Below are positions 2,286-20,373 of a stretch of 43,681 nt of DNA, in pieces. The stretch is taken from positions 1-43,681 of the IMG/VR virus record IMGVR_UViG_3300046168_000029; one strand, written 5' to 3'. This DNA is from a virus. Numbering within the stretch: the first letter of the stretch is position 1; each line of letters begins with the position of its first letter. The notes beneath the pieces were generated by a model. That model had not been told where the DNA came from. It ran no database searches and saw nothing but the letters and a program-made list of their open reading frames with translations. The translations under genes were made by a program, and so were the position numbers.

Positions 2286-3062
2286 ATGAACAATACATTA
2301 CCTAACAAAAGAAAAGAAATACAAGAGTATATGATGAGGGTCGCAGAGATTCCTTATGTGCTTTTTATTAACGAGCTTGGTCATGGGTTTACCTTGAATA
2401 GGCAATACAAATTACTTCACGAAAACATTGGTGATTGGAATGGTATGCCTCGCCATGTTATTTCAGGCATGTTACCACTTGCATCGAAGATGGAGCAAGG
2501 CTATCCACTTACTGATCGTGAAGCAATTCCTTCATGGGTCAACAAGTCCAAGATTGCACAGCGTGGACATGAATTTAAGACCTATTGGTTTGATATAGAC
2601 CCAATGGTCATAGATGCATTTTTTGAGCCTGAATATGAAAGTGGCGTGACCAAGCATTACGCTAGTGCCAAAGGTTTAAGTGCAGAAATCAAAGCACGCA
2701 AGGCAGTACAGCGTGCAGAAATTACCAAGCAATATCGCGAAGAGTTTCGCATTCGTAAACCATTTTTAAGTGATGGCATGATCCGTTTTTATTTGGATGC
2801 AGACAATGACGATCAGCAAAATGTTTGCACTCAATGGAATGATGGGTGGTGGGTTACAGAAAATTTTACAAATAAAGAGTTGGACAGGGTTATTGAGGAT
2901 ATAAAAAAGTTTCTATTCTCAGAGAAGTTGACAGGAGCATTTCACATTCATTTAGAGGGTCAATACTGTGCCTGCTCTTCTTTTGAGGAAGCAGAGGCAG
3001 GTCTGTATGAGCCTTGGGGTGACCACTTCCAAATTAACCATATCGTAACCATCAAAGTATAA
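2286..3062 (+). CDS. Unknown protein, first gene after promoter P1
   Basis: A 258-residue protein. The start at 2286 (MNNTLPNK) is chosen because it sits exactly where the other repeated promoters place their ATG; a longer frame to 2247 would put coding sequence inside the promoter. The middle (about residues 130-160) is rich in Lys/Arg/Glu and probably helical. The C-terminal part has Trp/His clusters (NDGWWVTEN, HIHLEG) and two nearby cysteines. There is no recognisable domain. It is an early-type accessory gene by position, in an operon with the next gene. Confidence 0.8.
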   Translation: MNNTLPNKRKEIQEYMMRVAEIPYVLFINELGHGFTLNRQYKLLHENIGDWNGMPRHVISGMLPLASKMEQGYPLTDREAIPSWVNKSKIAQRGHEFKTYWFDIDPMVIDAFFEPEYESGVTKHYASAKGLSAEIKARKAVQRAEITKQYREEFRIRKPFLSDGMIRFYLDADNDDQQNVCTQWNDGWWVTENFTNKELDRVIEDIKKFLFSEKLTGAFHIHLEGQYCACSSFEEAEAGLYEPWGDHFQINHIVTIKV

Positions 3063-3083
3063 AGACAACAGGAGAAAAATCTA

Positions 3084-3470
3084 ATGGACGGCAAATCAGT
3101 ATTAAATTTTAACTTGAAAGACAGACGGCTCGACTGCGAGTCACAAGTAATCTTAAAAGACAGCATCGCAAGAAAATATCAGGATGCTTGTGCTAGAAGG
3201 GAGCGAGCACAAAATCTTGTTGAAAAATATGAGATGCAACTTAAGGAACAAAGAAGGGTAGTGCAAAGACACGAAGAGCTTCTTAAAGAAGAGGAAACAA
3301 GCAGAAGAAAACTACATGCACTTTTGCGAAAGCATGACGATTTAAACATGGAAGAATATACTGACTACAGTGTACAAGTTTGGCTCGGAGATTGGGAGGA
3401 AGACATGCCGTATCAGGACACATGGGAAGAGGCATATAGTCACGCAAAGTGGTTGCTAAAACAATTCTAA
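3084..3470 (+). CDS. Small coiled-coil protein
   Basis: A 128-residue protein with a good Shine-Dalgarno (AGGAG) 21 bases after the preceding stop, so it is probably the second gene of the P1 operon. Residues about 30-95 are almost entirely charged helix with heptad spacing (ERAQNLVEKYEMQLKEQRR), indicating a coiled coil. The C-terminus is acidic and Trp-rich (WLGDWEEDMPY). Function unknown. Confidence 0.8.
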   Translation: MDGKSVLNFNLKDRRLDCESQVILKDSIARKYQDACARRERAQNLVEKYEMQLKEQRRVVQRHEELLKEEETSRRKLHALLRKHDDLNMEEYTDYSVQVWLGDWEEDMPYQDTWEEAYSHAKWLLKQF

Positions 3471-3488
3471 CTTTTTTTCATTTAGGGC

Positions 3489-3516
3489 TTGCATAATGTA
3501 AAACAATAAGCATGCT
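3489..3516 (+). promoter_or_regulatory. Repeated promoter P2 (not leaderless)
   Basis: TTGCAT (3489-3494), 16 bases, CATGCT (3511-3516). Downstream bases match the other copies, but ATT stands where they have ATG. The gene start is instead at 3558, behind a GTTTAAAC leader. This is the one member of the promoter family with a real 5' leader. Confidence 0.65.
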
Positions 3517-3531
3517 GTTCATTATTACATC

Positions 3532-3557
3532 GTTTAAACACCTAACCCAAAATTATT
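3532..3557 (+). promoter_or_regulatory. GTTTAAAC A/C-rich leader before start codon
   Basis: GTTTAAAC starts exactly 26 bases before the ATG at 3558, the same distance as in three other leaders (4679, 5005, 5636). The bases between are A/C-rich and contain no Shine-Dalgarno. This copy is the most diverged after the first 13 bases. Confidence 0.65.
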
Positions 3558-4019
3558 ATGACACCTGCAACATTTAAAAAATACAAAGAACTCGCTCAAG
3601 ATTTAGAAACACGCACTCCACTTCCTGTCGCACAGATTAATCGTGGGCTACATCACTTAGAGGATGCGTACAAGAAAACGATTCGTGGCGTTGTAAGTAA
3701 GATAGCAGACAGGTCGCATCAATATAAGGTTGAGCTTCGGTATGAGCCTAAAGAAGTTCTCTTGGGTGCACCTGACGGCATAGAGTCTACACACGGCGGT
3801 CATTGGGTATGCTCTTTGAAGAGGGAAGTATATAGCTCCTACACTACGATGTGGAAAGGTAAAGAAATGAGTGATATGAAGAGTGCAGAAATACGAGAGT
3901 GGTTCACTTTTACAACGACAGAAGAGTTACTCAAACGCACTGAGAACTGCGTAAAATTTCTTGAGGGTTTCAAACTGCAACATGACAGCAAAACAGTATT
4001 AGAAGAGGATTGGAAATAA
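3558..4019 (+). CDS. Unknown protein
   Basis: A 153-residue protein under promoter P2 with the GTTTAAAC leader. It contains a basic N-terminal helix, then an alternating hydrophobic/charged middle and a late segment with Thr/Glu clusters (FTTTEELLKRTEN). No motif or family was recognised. There is no Shine-Dalgarno in front of the ATG; the start is fixed by the conserved 26-base leader spacing. Confidence 0.75.
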   Translation: MTPATFKKYKELAQDLETRTPLPVAQINRGLHHLEDAYKKTIRGVVSKIADRSHQYKVELRYEPKEVLLGAPDGIESTHGGHWVCSLKREVYSSYTTMWKGKEMSDMKSAEIREWFTFTTTEELLKRTENCVKFLEGFKLQHDSKTVLEEDWK

Positions 4020-5661: not shown

Positions 5662-6180
5662 ATGAAATTCCACAAATTCAGCACATCCATGAGCCTCTAT
5701 GATGCATTAGAGGCACGAGACAATTCTTATATTTTGAAATCAGTTTACATCGACATGAAATTAGAGTTTATAAATAATTTTAATGCTTACCTTACGAAGC
5801 ACAAAGATGATTTTCTAAATGACGCTAGTGCACATTACCCTAATGATCCAATATCTGATAATGTAGTGCCACTTAAAGCTCAGTTTGTAGAATATTTGCA
5901 TCGTGCACCTGAGACAAACTCTGCTGACATTGGGCATTCTGAAATGTTAATGAAGTGCATTTGGCTTATGTTTGAAGCATGTGGTCACCACAAAACACTT
6001 AAAGAAGAGTTCCCAACACTTATTATATTTTGGGAAAAGTTAGGTTCTGACGAGCGTGCCTTTGTAACTGATGCACGGAAAATTCTTGGTATTAGAGAGA
6101 CTTTGCTTAGTTGGGAAAAACTTGCTCATATAGGAAATAACCTGCAATCAGCACTCTATGTTAGTGAGGCAGGACATTAA
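5662..6180 (+). CDS. Unknown helical protein
   Basis: A 172-residue protein, largely alpha-helical by composition, with hydrophobic stretches interrupted by charged turns (LIIFWEKLGSDERAF). It is second in the P4 unit and the last gene before the integrase promoter, which begins three bases after its stop. No family recognised. Confidence 0.75.
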   Translation: MKFHKFSTSMSLYDALEARDNSYILKSVYIDMKLEFINNFNAYLTKHKDDFLNDASAHYPNDPISDNVVPLKAQFVEYLHRAPETNSADIGHSEMLMKCIWLMFEACGHHKTLKEEFPTLIIFWEKLGSDERAFVTDARKILGIRETLLSWEKLAHIGNNLQSALYVSEAGH

Positions 6181-6224: not shown

Positions 6225-7385
6225 GTGCCATCTAAATATTTAGAGCCTAAAGGGCGAGGAGACGACTGCAAATCTCCTATTCGTCGGTTCGATTCCGACC
6301 CGCGCCTCCATTCCAATCGATGGTTGACAGTCGAGAGCATTGATATAGAAATCTCTCGCTTCGTGCATGTTGATGTAAACATATTGCTCGATACAACTTC
6401 TCATAAAATTTCCCTCTCATTCGATTACAAAGGTAAGCGAAGAATTAATCTGAACTGTTCTCTCGATGAGTTAACAGAGCAGGATGTTAGGGGTATTGTG
6501 AGAGCAAAGATGAACGAGGTGGATCGAGTGATCAGCCTTGCGGTACTGTGTGGATTTATATTAGACAACGATGACTGCGGTGGTAGCAAAGACACACGCA
6601 AAAAAGTCATCGCCAATTTTAAGGATTATTTAAAGCGAGAGAAAATTGATTTATCTAGCTCGACGAGAGTCCTGTTACAAAAAGATGAATACGGACGAAC
6701 ATTACCTGAGCGTTGGCAGGAGGAATATAAATTGCCACACAAGCTCAGGCAGGTTCGTTCGATGTTTAGTAAAAAGAATTTAGTGTTGTTCAATCGTGAA
6801 GGTTGGGACACTAGTCATTTCGGTAGCTTTATTTCTTTCGTTGCCGAATCGACAGTGTCTCAGCCTTTTACGACAAGCGATTCTGAAGTCGATCATATAA
6901 TAAATCATTTTAATTCAGTGAGTGCTAAGCATCCTGTATTCTATGATTTGTATATGTTAGCAATGGGTTGTGGTCTTCGTCAGTCTGAAATTTATCAGGT
7001 CAGATACGAAGATTTCACAACATTCGGCGGTCAATGTTTTCTTGTCCTCCCTTTTGCTACGAAACGCACGAAGCTTAAGGGATTAAACACGGCTGAAAAA
7101 GTAGGTATTCCTGAACAAGTATACATACATTTCACAGGCAGAGAAAAGACAGGTCTTGTCATCGAAGGAGGCAAGCGACTGCATAAGAGATTTATAAAAT
7201 ACTTGAAGACTGAGGTAGGCATCACTGAGGTGAAAGCTTGCCATCGTCTTCGGAAAATATTGGGTGCACGATTGGCATCGACCGCAGGTATATATCATGC
7301 GGCTAAGACACTCAGGAATAGTGTGGGCGTAGCAGAGAAATATTACTCTGATCTCGTCCAACACAAGAACGAATTGGCGGTGTAG
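6225..7385 (+). CDS. int: Tyrosine-family site-specific integrase
   Basis: Catalyses recombination between attP and host attB. Counting from GTG 6225, catalytic residues are Arg252 (GLRQSEIY), His340 and Arg343 (HRLRK), and the nucleophile in EKYYSDL (Tyr373 or Tyr374). An Arm-type N-terminal segment (SLSFDYKGKRRINL) precedes a SAM-like core-binding domain. The frame from GTG 6225 stays open straight through the attP core, so about 30 N-terminal residues would be translated tRNA sequence. The true start may be later, at TTG 6324 or GTG 6363; none has a good Shine-Dalgarno. The family call is firm, the start is not. Confidence 0.88.
   Translation: MPSKYLEPKGRGDDCKSPIRRFDSDPRLHSNRWLTVESIDIEISRFVHVDVNILLDTTSHKISLSFDYKGKRRINLNCSLDELTEQDVRGIVRAKMNEVDRVISLAVLCGFILDNDDCGGSKDTRKKVIANFKDYLKREKIDLSSSTRVLLQKDEYGRTLPERWQEEYKLPHKLRQVRSMFSKKNLVLFNREGWDTSHFGSFISFVAESTVSQPFTTSDSEVDHIINHFNSVSAKHPVFYDLYMLAMGCGLRQSEIYQVRYEDFTTFGGQCFLVLPFATKRTKLKGLNTAEKVGIPEQVYIHFTGREKTGLVIEGGKRLHKRFIKYLKTEVGITEVKACHRLRKILGARLASTAGIYHAAKTLRNSVGVAEKYYSDLVQHKNELAV
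6266..6310 (+). other. attP core: 3' half of tRNA-Cys(GCA)
   Basis: A perfect 3' tRNA half: anticodon loop CTGCAAA (anticodon GCA), stem TCTCC, variable TATTC, T-arm GTCGG-TTCGATT-CCGAC, acceptor strand CCGCGCC, discriminator T and CCA at 6308-6310. The matching 5' acceptor strand GGCGCGG is not present upstream, so this is not a complete gene. Next to a tyrosine integrase, this is the expected form of attP for integration into host tRNA-Cys, restoring the tRNA. A near copy of the 5' anticodon stem (GGAGA) sits at 6258-6262 but is offset by three bases. Confidence 0.85.
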
Positions 7386-7397
7386 TGGAGGGATAAT

Positions 7398-7610
7398 TTG
7401 GTTTACATATCAAACAGTCAGGCTGACAATGGTGACTCATTGTTAAGTAGCGTTGAGTTACAAGATAACAATATGTCTTTAACTCTTACAAATGATCAAC
7501 TTAAAGTTGTAATTAACGGAGAGTGGAATGGATCGATGCAGGATTTAATAGGATCACTGTACGAACTAGTAAAAATGCAGGAGGTGGATGATGATAAACT
7601 CGCGAGCTAA
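7398..7610 (+). CDS. Small unknown protein (TTG start)
   Basis: 70 residues. A TTG codon 13 bases after the integrase stop is preceded by GGAGGG at good spacing. An internal ATG at 7473 has no ribosome site. The C-terminal part (LTNDQLKVVINGEWNGS) looks like a compact beta/alpha element. The end overlaps the next gene. Function unknown. Confidence 0.6.
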   Translation: MVYISNSQADNGDSLLSSVELQDNNMSLTLTNDQLKVVINGEWNGSMQDLIGSLYELVKMQEVDDDKLAS

Positions 7611-7917
7611 AGGTGCTAGGTACGAACGCATGGTAGCTCAGTTTCTGAGAGAGCATGGATACGAGGCACGCCGTGGCTGTCAATTCTCAGGCTCAGCGGA
7701 TTCTCCTGATGTAGTCAGCGACTTTCCTTGTCACATCGAAGCCAAGTTCGTGGAGCGTTTAAACATCGTGGATGCATTTAAGCAAAGCGAGCGAGACTCA
7801 GGTGATAAACCGCCGTGCGTGATCCACAAAAAGAAACAGCAGAAATATCATCTCATCACGATGAATCTAGAAGATTTTATTAACCTAATAAAAACACACA
7901 AAAACAATGAACAATGA
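7591..7917 (+). CDS. Holliday-junction-resolvase-like PD-(D/E)XK nuclease
   Basis: A 108-residue protein that begins inside the previous gene. Motifs follow archaeal Hjc/RecB-like resolvases: RAKGARYERMVAQFL (Glu12) at the N-terminus, SPDVV (Asp40) and HIEAKF (Glu50-x-Lys52). The expected role is cleavage of branched DNA in the phage recombination pathway, which fits its place before ERF. GGAGG at 7580-7584 is better spaced for ATG 7591 than for ATG 7588. Restriction-endonuclease-fold nuclease is confident; the specific substrate is inferred. Confidence 0.75.
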   Translation: MINSRAKGARYERMVAQFLREHGYEARRGCQFSGSADSPDVVSDFPCHIEAKFVERLNIVDAFKQSERDSGDKPPCVIHKKKQQKYHLITMNLEDFINLIKTHKNNEQ

Positions 7918-8530
7918 AATTAATCAAACATCTAATTTGGTTGAGTTTTCAGCAATCTTTACGGCTTTTGCTGAAGCTCAGGCAGTATTATCTAATCCTG
8001 TTAAGGACAGTCAGGGTTATAACTATAAATATTCGAGCCTTGATCAGATAATTAATATCTTAAGAAATGTCCTGCCGACTTACGGCTTGGGCTACACTCA
8101 GAATTTACAGCATGTTGAGGACGAAGGTGGACAGCCCATGATCGCGGTTGAGACGATTGTGTTCCACAAGTCAGGTCAACAGCTTCAACCTAGTTACTTC
8201 ACCATGCCTGTCGAGGAAGGTAGAGGAATGTCACAGGCTCAAAGCTATGGTGCTACAATTACCTACGCTCGACGCTATGCACTGACAGCCATATTTTGCC
8301 TAGCAAGCGAGGATGATACAGACCTGAGTGGTCAAAAGGATGCCAACACAGAGCTACGCGATCGTGTTGCACAGATGATAAAAGAATGTGGTGCTGAAGC
8401 ATATGCTGATAGCAAAGGCATTGATCCAAAGAAGACATCAGTAGCCACACTTAGAAGTATCGATAAGCTCTCTAAGGAGGAAATCATCAAGCGTGTGAAA
8501 ACTTTCGAAGCAGAAAGGAAAGTAGCATGA
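7907..8530 (+). CDS. erf: ERF-family single-strand annealing protein
   Basis: 207 residues. The N-terminal two thirds fit the ERF superfamily: FAEAQAVLSNPVKDSQGYNYKYSS, then YGLGYTQ, and the hallmark SYGATITYARRYAL (residues about 115-128) followed by CLASEDDTDLS. ERF proteins anneal complementary single strands during phage recombination and genome circularisation. The C-terminal third is charged helix. It overlaps the resolvase-like gene by 11 bases and the exonuclease gene by ATGA, so the three are translationally coupled. Confidence 0.9.
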   Translation: MNNEINQTSNLVEFSAIFTAFAEAQAVLSNPVKDSQGYNYKYSSLDQIINILRNVLPTYGLGYTQNLQHVEDEGGQPMIAVETIVFHKSGQQLQPSYFTMPVEEGRGMSQAQSYGATITYARRYALTAIFCLASEDDTDLSGQKDANTELRDRVAQMIKECGAEAYADSKGIDPKKTSVATLRSIDKLSKEEIIKRVKTFEAERKVA

Positions 8531-9213
8531 CAATGGACAGGCTTGTAGGTCACAATATCGATCGATTTGATATTACATATCTGATCAGATGGTCAGTTTA
8601 TAACGGAATAAAAGTTCCATTTAATCTCGTGCCAAACGGAAAGTTTCGAGGGTGGAGAAGTTGCATCTTCGATACCATGACCGAACTCGGTGCAGGTGAA
8701 TACAATTACATGATCAAGCTTGAATTAGCGGCTCGTGCATGTGGATACGAGGGCGGTAAAACAGGAAACGGAAAGTTCTTCTATCAGATGTCTGAGGAAG
8801 ATAAGAAAGAATATCTAACGGCTGACATCGAGATGGTTGACTATCTCTTTGAGCATTTTATGGCGAGCTACGAGTTGGACTATAAACCTGTGATTTTCGA
8901 TATCGAAACCGAACCACTCGACTACGACAATCTAGATCGACTTGCACCAAAATTTAATCCTGATGATGTTGCTGTCGGTAATCTCAAAGACCCTGAAAAG
9001 ATCAGGGCAAAGATCGAGACTGCCGAGGCAAATCACATCAAGAAGATTCAGGATGGTGCAGGTTTGCAAGCTCACTATTCAAAGCCCATCGCAATCGGCT
9101 ACAAGATCGATGGCAAAGTCGAGTTAGATTTTAGCGAACCAAAAGAGCTAGTCACACGCTTTTGGGAAATCGCAAACGATGTGTGGTACAACAACAACTC
9201 AAAATCAATATGA
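8527..9213 (+). CDS. DEDDy 3'-5' exonuclease with circularly permuted motif order
   Basis: 228 residues. A normal DnaQ-like exonuclease runs Exo I, Exo II, Exo III. Here Exo II comes first (Asn10 and Asp15 in GHNIDRFD), then Exo III (Tyr96-x3-Asp100 in EYLTAD), and Exo I is last (Asp125 and Glu127 in VIFDIETEP), followed by IAIGYKIDGK and ELVTRFWEIAND, which normally lead straight into the Exo II segment. All four acidic residues are present. The start overlaps the ERF stop as ATGA and the end overlaps the SSB-like gene as ATGA, so the permuted frame is intact rather than a fragment. The likely role is end processing with ERF and SSB. Confidence 0.82.
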   Translation: MTMDRLVGHNIDRFDITYLIRWSVYNGIKVPFNLVPNGKFRGWRSCIFDTMTELGAGEYNYMIKLELAARACGYEGGKTGNGKFFYQMSEEDKKEYLTADIEMVDYLFEHFMASYELDYKPVIFDIETEPLDYDNLDRLAPKFNPDDVAVGNLKDPEKIRAKIETAEANHIKKIQDGAGLQAHYSKPIAIGYKIDGKVELDFSEPKELVTRFWEIANDVWYNNNSKSI

Positions 9214-9602
9214 AAACAACAGCAGGAATCGTGGGTGTTTACACATCCAATCAGGACGGCGAAGAATATGTTACACGCAATGGTAATCCATATCTGAAAT
9301 TATTATGGAAGACTGACAATGAGAAGACGATCTACGATGCGTTTTTCATGACCGAGAAAGCTCATTGGAAGTGCGAGAAACTATTTGAAGCCTGTGGCAT
9401 ACAAGCACCATCAGCAACTGATCTTAGTACGAAAGATTTCGAGAGTTTGATAGGCAAAAAGTGTGTGGTGGAAATAGGAAAAAACAAGGCAGGATATGAC
9501 ACTGTCTTCAAGTACGAACTAGCTGAGGATGAGCCAAAGATCGAAGAGCCTGTCGAGCCTATCGAAGTAGACGAAGACGATCTTGACGAAATCCCATTCT
9601 GA
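9210..9602 (+). CDS. SSB-like single-stranded DNA-binding protein
   Basis: 130 residues from ATG 9210 (ATGA overlap with the exonuclease). The N-terminal about 100 residues look like an OB-fold-type beta domain (GIVGVYTSN, YLKLLWKT, KKCVVEIGKN). The C-terminus is a strongly acidic tail ending DDLDEIPF, closely like the SSB C-terminal tip (DDIPF) that recruits replication and repair partners. Similar small proteins accompany phage recombinases. The SSB role is inferred from the tail and context. Confidence 0.75.
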   Translation: MKTTAGIVGVYTSNQDGEEYVTRNGNPYLKLLWKTDNEKTIYDAFFMTEKAHWKCEKLFEACGIQAPSATDLSTKDFESLIGKKCVVEIGKNKAGYDTVFKYELAEDEPKIEEPVEPIEVDEDDLDEIPF

Positions 9603-9603
9603 C

Positions 9604-10206
9604 ATGAGCGAGGGCTATTCGATAACTGTTAAACTGAGTCCGTTTCTTGAGAAATATGTCAAGACACGAGGTGACTTTTTGGGGCAGTCATACAAGTCTG
9701 TAGTCATTGATGCGATCACTCGCTTGGCTGAGGCTGATGGACTGCCATATCAAAACAGCACCAAATCGACTATCGAATCGACCCCTGATTCAGCACCAAA
9801 TCCGTTCATGACTCCTGTTCCTGTTCAGGCAGTAGTCGAACGAAACGACACCAAATCGACCCCTGATTCGACTGTTGATTTGGTGCTGAATCACCCTCCC
9901 TCGCGTGCGTTAAATAATATATATAATATTAATAATAAGAATAATAATATAGAAATATATAATGAGAGTCTGAGAGAGGTTTGGGGAGAGTTTGTGCAGT
10001 TCAGGAAAGAACAGCGAAAACCAATAAAGCCAACACAGATGAAAAAGCTGTGGGCTAAGTTTGACAACATAATCAAAGAGAACGGCGTGGATGGATTAGT
10101 CGCGTCGATCAATCAAACTATCGAGCGAGGATATCAGGGCGTGTTTCCTGTAGCCGAGCAGGTGGTTAACAATGACAACACAACACACAATTCGGAGGAC
10201 TTTTAA
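9604..10206 (+). CDS. Replication initiator-like protein (RHH-like N-terminus, DnaD-like C-terminus)
   Basis: 200 residues. Residues 5-45 (YSITVKLSPFLEKYVKTRG) resemble a ribbon-helix-helix or similar DNA-binding element. Residues about 50-115 are low-complexity, and the DNA encoding them carries the origin-like repeats. Residues 120-185 (VWGEFVQFRKEQRKPIKP … INQTIERGYQGVFPV) match the C-terminal segment typical of phage DnaD-like or replisome-organiser proteins. The helicase loader gene follows at once. Binding its own internal origin, as lambda O does, is an inference from layout. Confidence 0.72.
   Translation: MSEGYSITVKLSPFLEKYVKTRGDFLGQSYKSVVIDAITRLAEADGLPYQNSTKSTIESTPDSAPNPFMTPVPVQAVVERNDTKSTPDSTVDLVLNHPPSRALNNIYNINNKNNNIEIYNESLREVWGEFVQFRKEQRKPIKPTQMKKLWAKFDNIIKENGVDGLVASINQTIERGYQGVFPVAEQVVNNDNTTHNSEDF
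9759..9965. other. Candidate replication origin inside the initiator gene
   Basis: Direct repeats: CACCAAATCGAC at 9759-9770 and 9849-9860, and AATCGACCCCTGATTC at 9776-9791 and 9854-9869. Inverted repeat: GATTCAGCACCAAATC at 9787-9802 with its exact complement at 9877-9892. Immediately downstream, 9910-9962 is almost pure A/T, suitable as an unwinding element. The arrangement of iterons plus AT-rich DNA within an initiator gene, next to a helicase loader gene, parallels the lambda O origin. Function is inferred. Confidence 0.72.
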
Positions 10207-10207
10207 T

Positions 10208-10930
10208 ATGATACCATGCAGAGAATGCGGTCAGGACTCAGGGTGGACTGAGGAACTACTTAACGGCTTACTTTTTCAGGGTAATGCCAACTGTGCAGTA
10301 TGCGATGACTGCTGTGACAAATACGAGGCGAGCAAGCGTTTAAACGATGAGCAGGAACAACAGCCAACAATTCGCGAGCCGTTAAACAAATTGATTAGAC
10401 CGCTGTACCTTGAAACGGACTATCACAAGCTACCAAAACAGGCACAGCATATTTGGATGAATATTCGACATTGGACTCCAACTAACAGGATTGGATTACG
10501 GCTATGTGGATCGAGCAGGACAGGCAAGACACGACTGATGATGATGCTACTTAAGAAACTCTATGATGATCAGGAAAACTTTAAAGTATTTTACGCAGGT
10601 GAGTTTCACGCAGAGTTGTCTGACGCAAAGCGTTCATCGTTTTATAAGCATTGGAGGGATGAAGTAGTCAATGCTCCGATACTTGCGATCGACGATCTAT
10701 TCGCTGAAAAGATGACACCAACAACTGAGGCAGGTTTGTTTGAGATTGTTAATCAAAGAATGGAAAGGCGTTTACCATTGCTCTACACATCTCAGGTAAA
10801 GGCAGGAAGTGCGATCGATCGATTTGATGACAAAGCACGAGGTCAGGCATTTGTGAACAGACTCAAGGAAACCACTCGACTACATTATTTCGAGACGATC
10901 AAACAGGAGGAAATGGCATATGCGGTTTGA
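10208..10930 (+). CDS. DnaC-like AAA+ helicase loader
   Basis: 240 residues from ATG 10208, with GGAGGA upstream. The N-terminus has a possible zinc site (Cys4, Cys7, Cys29, Cys32, with Cys35 and Cys36 nearby). Walker A GSSRTGKT is at 101-108, Walker B ILAIDDLF at 158-165, and a sensor-like LLYTSQV near 195, as in DnaC/IstB-type loaders. It would place the host replicative helicase at the phage origin; no phage helicase or polymerase gene was found. It overlaps the next small gene by 11 bases. Confidence 0.82.
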   Translation: MIPCRECGQDSGWTEELLNGLLFQGNANCAVCDDCCDKYEASKRLNDEQEQQPTIREPLNKLIRPLYLETDYHKLPKQAQHIWMNIRHWTPTNRIGLRLCGSSRTGKTRLMMMLLKKLYDDQENFKVFYAGEFHAELSDAKRSSFYKHWRDEVVNAPILAIDDLFAEKMTPTTEAGLFEIVNQRMERRLPLLYTSQVKAGSAIDRFDDKARGQAFVNRLKETTRLHYFETIKQEEMAYAV

Positions 10931-12031: not shown

Positions 12032-12229
12032 GTGAACGAACTTTACCGACTTATAAATAATATGACCACAGAAACACACATACTGTCCTACTTACAGGAC
12101 TATGGAATAATCTCTGATAACTGCTACAGGGTGCATCATGTAATCAACGACTATGAGGCATATGCATTCATAAAGTCTAAGCAGAGAGAGTTTAATGCGT
12201 GGGTAAATGGAGAAATACAGACATGGTAA
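12032..12229 (+). CDS. Small acidic unknown protein
   Basis: 65 residues from GTG 12032, or 55 from ATG 12062. Neither has a clear Shine-Dalgarno. It contains YLQDYGIISDNCYRV and a Tyr/Asp-rich centre. Its end overlaps the nuclease gene by 7 bases, which supports it being translated. Function unknown. Confidence 0.55.
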   Translation: MNELYRLINNMTTETHILSYLQDYGIISDNCYRVHHVINDYEAYAFIKSKQREFNAWVNGEIQTW

Positions 12230-12687
12230 GACCAAGATACGAAACGGAAAAGGATAGAGAGAACGAAAGAAGGGTAGGTAGCTTTTTGGGACAGCTATGG
12301 AACTGTGAGTTTAAGAAGCTAAACGAGTACAAGTATGTGGTGGATTTTTTAATAAAGAACGGAAAAGAGCCACACGCATTTGCCGAGCTTAAATGTTTAA
12401 ACAGACAATACGATTCGTATCCGTTTATGATAAGCTTTACAAAGATACTTGCGGCAGAAGAGTTGTGTAGCTTAGGCAGGATACCTTTTATCCTTTTATT
12501 TCGCTGTGATGACGAATTGTGCTTTCACACTTGGGATTTTGATAGGCACTACAAGTTAGAGTGGGGTGGTAGGACGGCAACAAAGAGGGACGAGGAGGAT
12601 GAGGAACTTGTCTTTCGTATTCCGATAGAGGACTGCAAAACAATTAGGAGTTATAGAAAGAATGAACATTTGGTCACCAACAGGTAG
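12223..12687 (+). CDS. PD-(D/E)XK-type nuclease
   Basis: 154 residues from ATG 12223; an in-frame GTG at 12199 is less likely. The nuclease core is VVDFLI (Asp41) and FAELKCLN (Glu55-x-Lys57), followed by SFTKILAAEEL and GRIPFILLFRCDD, which matches the helix-strand end of small restriction-endonuclease-fold proteins. Its role could be DNA repair, packaging or host DNA degradation. It lies in the terminase operon and overlaps the next ORF. Confidence 0.7.
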   Translation: MVRPRYETEKDRENERRVGSFLGQLWNCEFKKLNEYKYVVDFLIKNGKEPHAFAELKCLNRQYDSYPFMISFTKILAAEELCSLGRIPFILLFRCDDELCFHTWDFDRHYKLEWGGRTATKRDEEDEELVFRIPIEDCKTIRSYRKNEHLVTNR

Positions 12688-19659: not shown

Positions 19660-20373
19660 ATGAAATCTTTCGTGTTTGCCTCTGACTTACACGGAGACAA
19701 ACAAAATTATGAAGCTGTAAAAGGCTTACTAGAATTTGTAAAAGAGTTTAAGCCTGATGTGCGAATATTTGGCGGCGACCTTTTTGACTTCTCACCATTA
19801 ATGAGAGGTGCAGATGTTGCAGAAAAAAATGCATCGATGGAGGCAGATGTCGAGGCAGGTATGGAATTTCTTGATGCCTTTAAACCTGATTATTTTTTAC
19901 TAGGTAACCATGATGATCGACTGTGGCAGACAGCAGAAAAGCACAGCGTAGGTATTATCAGAGATACTGCGAAGATGGGAATCAAAGACATCAAAGCAAA
20001 ATGTCGATCTATAAAGTGCAAGATGCTACCATATGATGTCGATAAGGGCATACTAGAGTTAGGTAAAATAAAGTTTTGCCACGGATATTTTCATGGAATT
20101 ACTGCAACAAAGAGACATGCCGAGACATTTGGTACAAGTGGTGGTTTGGTGATTCATGGACACATACACTCTATACAAATGTATTCTATTCCTAGAGCAG
20201 GAGGTTGTGCAGGAATAAGTGCAGGATGCTTGGCAACAACAGCAATGGATTGGAATCGTGCAAAGGTCAATAGACTAGCACACGAGTGCGGTTGGGTTTA
20301 TGGGTATTACTCAAGAACAGGTTGGGTTGCCAATATAGCTAGGAAGGTTGATGGTAAGTGGGTAAGAAAATAA
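19660..20373 (+). CDS. Calcineurin-like metallophosphoesterase
   Basis: 237 residues with the full motif set: SDLHGD (Asp9, His11), GGDLFD (Asp40), GNHDDR (Asn83, His84), CHGYFHG (His141) and HGHIH (His166, His168). These bind two metals and hydrolyse phosphoesters. It lies between the portal and scaffold genes, so it may act on DNA or nucleotides during head assembly or on the host. The specific substrate is unknown. It overlaps the next gene by 16 bases. Confidence 0.88.
   Translation: MKSFVFASDLHGDKQNYEAVKGLLEFVKEFKPDVRIFGGDLFDFSPLMRGADVAEKNASMEADVEAGMEFLDAFKPDYFLLGNHDDRLWQTAEKHSVGIIRDTAKMGIKDIKAKCRSIKCKMLPYDVDKGILELGKIKFCHGYFHGITATKRHAETFGTSGGLVIHGHIHSIQMYSIPRAGGCAGISAGCLATTAMDWNRAKVNRLAHECGWVYGYYSRTGWVANIARKVDGKWVRK

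Follow-up and report, generated by a model that had tools for sequence, protein, structure and literature searches.

The gene at positions 8527 to 9213 of the window, which is the whole 43,681-base stretch of viral DNA analysed here, is very likely a natural circular permutant of a PolB-type DEDDy 3'-5' DNA exonuclease, with one probable origin and most likely a role in ERF recombination. The circular permutation was proposed in the first-pass annotation of the sequence, and it was supported by the union of two swapped domains on rotation, the rotated order of the secondary structure elements, homologues with the same motif order, relatives with the straight order, and purifying selection acting on both halves. 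With this support, circular permutation of a DEDDy exonuclease accounted for all of the data.

Motif order and rotation of the exonuclease

The DEDDy 3'-5' exonucleases usually carry their motifs in the order Exo I, Exo II, Exo III, which is not known as a requirement for catalysis. In the window protein the order was Exo II, Exo III, Exo I, and the gene was divided into two halves as follows.

8527..9213, + strand: predicted circularly permuted DEDDy (PolB-type) 3'-5' exonuclease gene, 228 amino acids
8527..8871, + strand: Exo II/Exo III half, residues 1-115, equivalent to the C-terminal half of linear relatives
8872..9210, + strand: Exo I half, residues 116-228, equivalent to the N-terminal half of linear relatives
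8548..8571, + strand: Exo II motif GHNIDRFD, residues 8-15 (N10, D15); G, H, N, F and D invariant in the permuted family, F-D invariant in 27 linear relatives
8812..8826, + strand: Exo III motif YLTAD, residues 96-100 (Y96, D100); Y and D invariant in the permuted and linear sets
8899..8907, + strand: Exo I motif DIE, residues 125-127 (D125, E127); D and E invariant in the permuted and linear sets

The open reading frame, its coordinates and the residues N10/D15, Y96/D100 and D125/E127 were all as described in the first-pass annotation when read from the sequence. The retention of all catalytic residues claimed there extended to every permuted member, in which the DEDDy signature was complete (Exo I DxE, Exo II N-x(3)-F-D and Exo III Y-x(3)-D) and D125, E127, N10, D15, Y96, D100 and the segment GNGKFFYQ were invariant. 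The ATGA coupling on both sides was seen directly, at 8527-8530 (ERF stop and exonuclease ATG) and at 9210-9213 (exonuclease stop and ATG of an SSB-like gene). A second copy had been said to be absent nearby. A profile of the linear family, built from 33 straight-order phage exonucleases, matched each swapped half a single time, and nowhere else, when the window and seven related phage records were searched in full. The proposed perfect join of head and tail was backed by the linear relatives: in L095, for example, the segment EFWDALRGEMGRVNTAVGFNIFAFD aligned against the permuted tail RFWEIANDVWYNNNSKSI and the permuted head MTMDRLVGHNIDRFD.

Against the linear profile, the native window protein matched as two swapped domains, with profile positions 106-217 at residues 2-113 in the Exo II/III half (46 bits) and positions 4-99 at residues 121-214 in the Exo I half (20 bits). 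After rotation of the protein by about 116 residues, a single continuous domain covering positions 4-217 was obtained with 77 bits, and the same change from swapped to single domain was observed in all eight distinct permuted proteins (the window protein and seven others). In rotation scans, the best score fell at residue 112-120 in each of the four permuted members scanned, and the two linear proteins used as controls scored best unrotated. The native window protein reached 68 bits with two swapped domains versus at most 7.6 bits in 5000 shuffles of the same protein, among which the swapped domain pair was never seen. Both halves are thus homologous to one family, swapped in order, and joined in one continuous match after rotation, as in a natural circular permutant.

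Curated profiles responded to rotation in the same direction. For PF10108 (curated cut-off 24 bits), the window protein had no match in the native order and 18.5 bits when rotated, and the permuted relative L004 rose from 22.5 to 32.9 bits; for phrog_403, the window protein rose from 29.8 to 41.3 bits. The de-permuted L004 query matched linear relatives over 92-93% of its length, while the native window query gave one partial match to one record of the phage collection, over 43% of the query length, and nothing significant in native-order searches of Pfam and PDB sequences. Matches of rotated queries to pentatricopeptide designs in phmmer were repeat artefacts.

Predicted structures of the permuted and linear proteins

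The model of the permuted protein, predicted from a nine-row alignment, had a pLDDT of 82 and a pTM of 0.78. Its elements ran strand-helix-(small elements)-long helix and then long strand-helix-helix-helix-strand-strand-helix, and the linear L095 model (pLDDT 92) showed matching elements, with the long strand first; the two predicted secondary structures were rotations of each other. Residues 1-223 of the L095 model aligned with the exonuclease domains of family B polymerases (Z 17-19, rmsd 2.6-3.0), for example with residues 135-329 of Tgo. Residues 1-118 of the permuted model aligned to residues 201-333 of PolB polymerases, the second part of the exonuclease domain, with a Z of 5.7 (Deep Vent, rmsd 3.8 over 112 residues), a value that is unremarkable alone and counts only jointly with the sequence evidence. 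No significant full-length fold match was found for the permuted model with Foldseek or VIA-align, as would be expected of aligners that appear to follow chain order and so leave the other half out of the same match. Scattered matches of the permuted model to Maf, ITPase and CinA folds (Z 5-7.6) were rejected, lying in the range marked as a common arrangement.

The rotated chain would presumably form the same RNase H-like sheet. In the permuted model, helix 90-115 was connected with strand 122-130 by a link of only six residues, which agrees with old N- and C-termini that lie near each other in the linear relatives; the old C-terminal helix would run straight into the old first strand, which carries Exo I. 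The new chain ends would lie in the loop between helix αA and the Exo II strand, and the same two-metal site may be rebuilt in space from D125, E127, D15 and D100, with Y96.

The permuted lineage, its gene cluster and its origin

A native-order search of viral contigs identified eight further contigs from seven metagenomes with the same motif order; two of them carried an identical exonuclease sequence, leaving seven distinct sequences, which were 39-49% identical to the window protein over the full length. A phylogeny of 57 proteins, rotated or linear, placed all permuted members in one clade (support 100/99), and separate analyses of the two halves each recovered a single permuted clade as well (99/98 and 100/98). 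Close pairs gave dN/dS values of 0.06-0.21 over the whole gene and of 0.04-0.20 in either half, which indicates purifying selection on the permuted gene. The genes around the exonuclease in the window were as follows.

6225..7385, + strand: tyrosine integrase, first in the cluster (weak scores, Phage_integrase 2.2e-4 and phrog_1 7.7e-5; 51-61% identical integrases at the same place in the relatives)
7588..7917, + strand: PDDEXK/Holliday-junction-resolvase-like nuclease (phrog_244 6.5e-20; PF24608 5.2e-06, just below the cut-off)
7907..8530, + strand: ERF single-strand annealing recombinase, upstream of the exonuclease gene and overlapping it (PF04404 3.1e-26)
9210..9602, + strand: SSB-like (DUF669/phrog_378) gene, overlapping the exonuclease gene by ATGA (weak scores, phrog_378 1.3e-4 and PF05037 0.0085; a conserved neighbour)
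9583..10206, + strand: replication initiation O-like protein (phrog_678 1.8e-9)
10172..10930, + strand: DnaC-like helicase loader (phrog_50 1.3e-13, Bac_DnaA 2.6e-6)

The order integrase, PDDEXK nuclease, ERF, exonuclease, SSB-like protein, replication initiator and DnaC-like loader was shared by the window and its seven distinct relatives. The homologue search suggested in the first-pass annotation revealed a stable lineage, the window and eight further contigs, in one clade and with a conserved gene slot. Assembly rearrangement, the alternative named there, was excluded by the related contigs of seven other metagenomes. Although the window record is a metagenomic virus contig, a rearrangement or a chance arrangement of motifs is vanishingly improbable, given the same order at 39-49% identity in one conserved gene cluster and the negative shuffle control. 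The same order in other metagenomes, the single clade, the purifying selection and the common gene slot together argue for a stable lineage and not for an assembly artefact.

Since the window record contains terminase, major head protein and integrase genes, the virus is probably a temperate tailed phage. Its capsid protein had distant phage matches only, and a search of its helicase loader for relatives pointing to a host gave no match. The 3' half of a tRNA-Cys-like sequence was present at 6250-6310 (GACTGCAAATC ... GGTTCGATTCCGACC ... TCCA), within the first part of the integrase ORF as called, and the relative L002 carried the same half at about 2645-2702; ARAGORN called no whole tRNA. This segment resembles an attP core that would direct integration into a tRNA-Cys gene, and the true start of the integrase is probably downstream of 6310. 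In L004, the integrase was found in two overlapping ORFs (2809-3654 and 3627-3833), an apparent frameshift. Three relatives (L002, L004 and L005) had an extra short ORF of about 60 amino acids between the exonuclease and SSB-like genes, at about 5705-5910 (KKWEIIGYRQIQKPFKKVISKLLEVEARTEAEAEKAGKNYAKMMGV in L004), for which the window has no room because the two genes overlap. Elsewhere in the window, an uncharacterised phage family gene with the nuclease-like stretch FAELK was observed at 12199-12687 (phrog_7141, 4e-16), and a metallophosphoesterase gene lay directly before the head genes at 19660-20373 (phrog_221, 3.8e-10).

Relatives with the straight motif order were found in phages (MW202520, Rhizobium phage RHph_Y25 and many IMG/VR contigs), and the nearest ones by sequence were found in Verrucomicrobiota/Lentisphaerota bins (L094-L096, L098, L113, L114 and others). 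The best segments of L094-L096 were 41-46% identical to the window protein. The segment FDPxxVKxGNxKDPxKI was common to these three linear proteins and the permuted ones, and, as in the window, a homologue of the same PDDEXK nuclease lay upstream of the exonuclease gene; unlike in the window, their motif order was straight and no ERF was matched nearby. By eye, the exonuclease gene of L094 and L095 followed an ORF with an SSB/DUF669-like look. ERF was located upstream of the linear exonuclease in MW202520 and L098. In the 57-protein tree, the permuted clade lay within the part holding most bacterial linear proteins, near the Verrucomicrobiota linear set, with poor support for its exact sister, and the Exo II/III half alone did not resolve it. 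In the phylum to which the L095 bin belongs, 388 genomes yielded no permuted copy, and every full match read as linear.

The single permuted clade, for the whole protein and for each half, fits a single origin. That event probably took place in an ancestor of these temperate phages, with a linear exonuclease of the Verrucomicrobiota/Lentisphaerota-bin type as its source. The simplest route to the permutant would be a tandem duplication from which both outer halves were then trimmed away. Parts of a loop that is single in the linear relatives persisted in both the tail and the head of the permuted protein, as this route would leave. No duplicated intermediate was found in any of the fetched loci, which comprised the permuted ORFs (the window and eight contigs, some repeated), 79 linear ORF entries from overlapping loci, and three partial matches in long polymerase-like ORFs. 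The gap of about 205 bp after the exonuclease gene in L002, L004 and L005 contained no motif of a second-copy remnant, and one frame there was the short shared ORF.

The gene might instead be a fusion of halves from two different linear exonucleases in swapped order, and not the rotation of one ancestor. L094-L096 were the best matches of the Exo I half (75-92 bits), the Exo II/III half scored about equally against L113, L114 and L095 (63-66 bits), and the relative divergence of the halves differed among close members, which would speak for two sources. We consider such a fusion quite unlikely, as both halves pointed to the same broad Verrucomicrobiota linear group, with L095 in the top three for each, and the permuted set was one clade for either half. 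Rotation of one linear ancestor is therefore preferred. As for the divergence itself, dN in L004/L005 was 0.19 in the Exo II/III half and 0.07 in the Exo I half, and dS in L007/L009 was 0.40 and 1.23, respectively, in the opposite direction; recombination inside the gene or next to it may be the cause.

Probable role of the predicted exonuclease and relation to known systems

The DEDD fold with these residues predicts a metal-dependent 3'-5' DNA exonuclease, and the selection together with the invariant catalytic residues suggests that the gene is working. Overlap with the ERF and SSB-like genes points to a part in ERF recombination, in which the predicted enzyme would most likely trim DNA 3' ends or 3' flaps during ERF-mediated single-strand annealing and recombination-dependent replication, acting beside the SSB-like protein. 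The permutant could also fold without catalysis and assist ERF by binding DNA or as a scaffold, since some DEDD-fold proteins, such as Maelstrom, are thought to be inactive (PMC2848206); with the DEDDy residues invariant in every permuted member even where identity drops to 39%, this is very unlikely. The main rival on the role is a genuine permuted exonuclease that acts as the proofreading or editing subunit of a replication polymerase and not in recombination. The label of phrog_403 ("DNA polymerase exonuclease subunit"), the fold of the linear relative, which is nearest to PolB proofreading domains, and the replication genes downstream agree with such a subunit, but the overlapping neighbours were ERF and an SSB-like gene, no polymerase gene was present among the neighbours examined, and some linear relatives also adjoined ERF, so that proofreading appears unlikely, if less so than loss of catalysis, and a recombination exonuclease is preferred.

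The predicted PolB-related 3'-5' exonucleases of PF10108 (DNA_pol_B_exo2) and phrog_403, which form cluster F.12 of a survey of the RNase H-like superfamily (PMC3985635), have the same catalytic residues as the window protein. The linear relatives found here had, like the window protein, an insert that separates Exo I from the next strand, and some lay beside ERF, SSB or PDDEXK nuclease genes; their motifs run I-II-III, whereas those of the window protein, which lacks a native PF10108 match, run II-III-I. The exonuclease domain of family B DNA polymerases (KOD, Tgo and Pol epsilon) has the same DEDDy fold, with which the whole linear relative aligned, but it is an unpermuted domain of a polymerase. 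Phage D3, like the window, has an ERF annealase with an adjoining exonuclease, and its Erf/Exo pair (orf52/orf51) replaces lambda Red in recombination (PMC3945230), which shows that a recombination exonuclease can occupy the slot beside ERF, although that of D3 is annotated as YqaJ-like and belongs to another nuclease family than the DEDDy fold.

Other natural circular permutations have been described in phage DNA methylases (PMC7824862) and proposed for DnaE/PolC (PMC3919608); these are the same kind of evolutionary event in different folds, and none is a DEDD exonuclease. In the open-access literature searched, which does not prove priority, no permuted DEDD, DnaQ-like, proofreading or RNase H-like exonuclease was found, and the word stem "permut" was absent from the broad 2014 survey of the RNase H-like superfamily (PMC3985635). 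It is rather likely that the DEDD exonuclease (DnaQ/PolB exonuclease) fold had no known natural circular permutant before the window protein, and that this protein is a catalytically active enzyme of single origin which became fixed in one lineage of temperate phages, where it partners the ERF annealase; its new ends, at the beginning of the Exo II strand, may contact ERF or the SSB-like protein. The chemistry and the family are known, and the topology with its permuted order appears to be new.

DEDD exonucleases are among the most widespread nucleases and act in proofreading and in the 3' trimming of RNA and DNA. Order-dependent annotation misses genes of the permuted kind, as illustrated by the window protein, which had no significant Pfam match. 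A selected natural permutant with linear and several permuted relatives offers a direct test of the tolerance of this fold to rotation, and the same set informs how a permutation arises in a compact gene cluster and how moved chain ends affect the active site.
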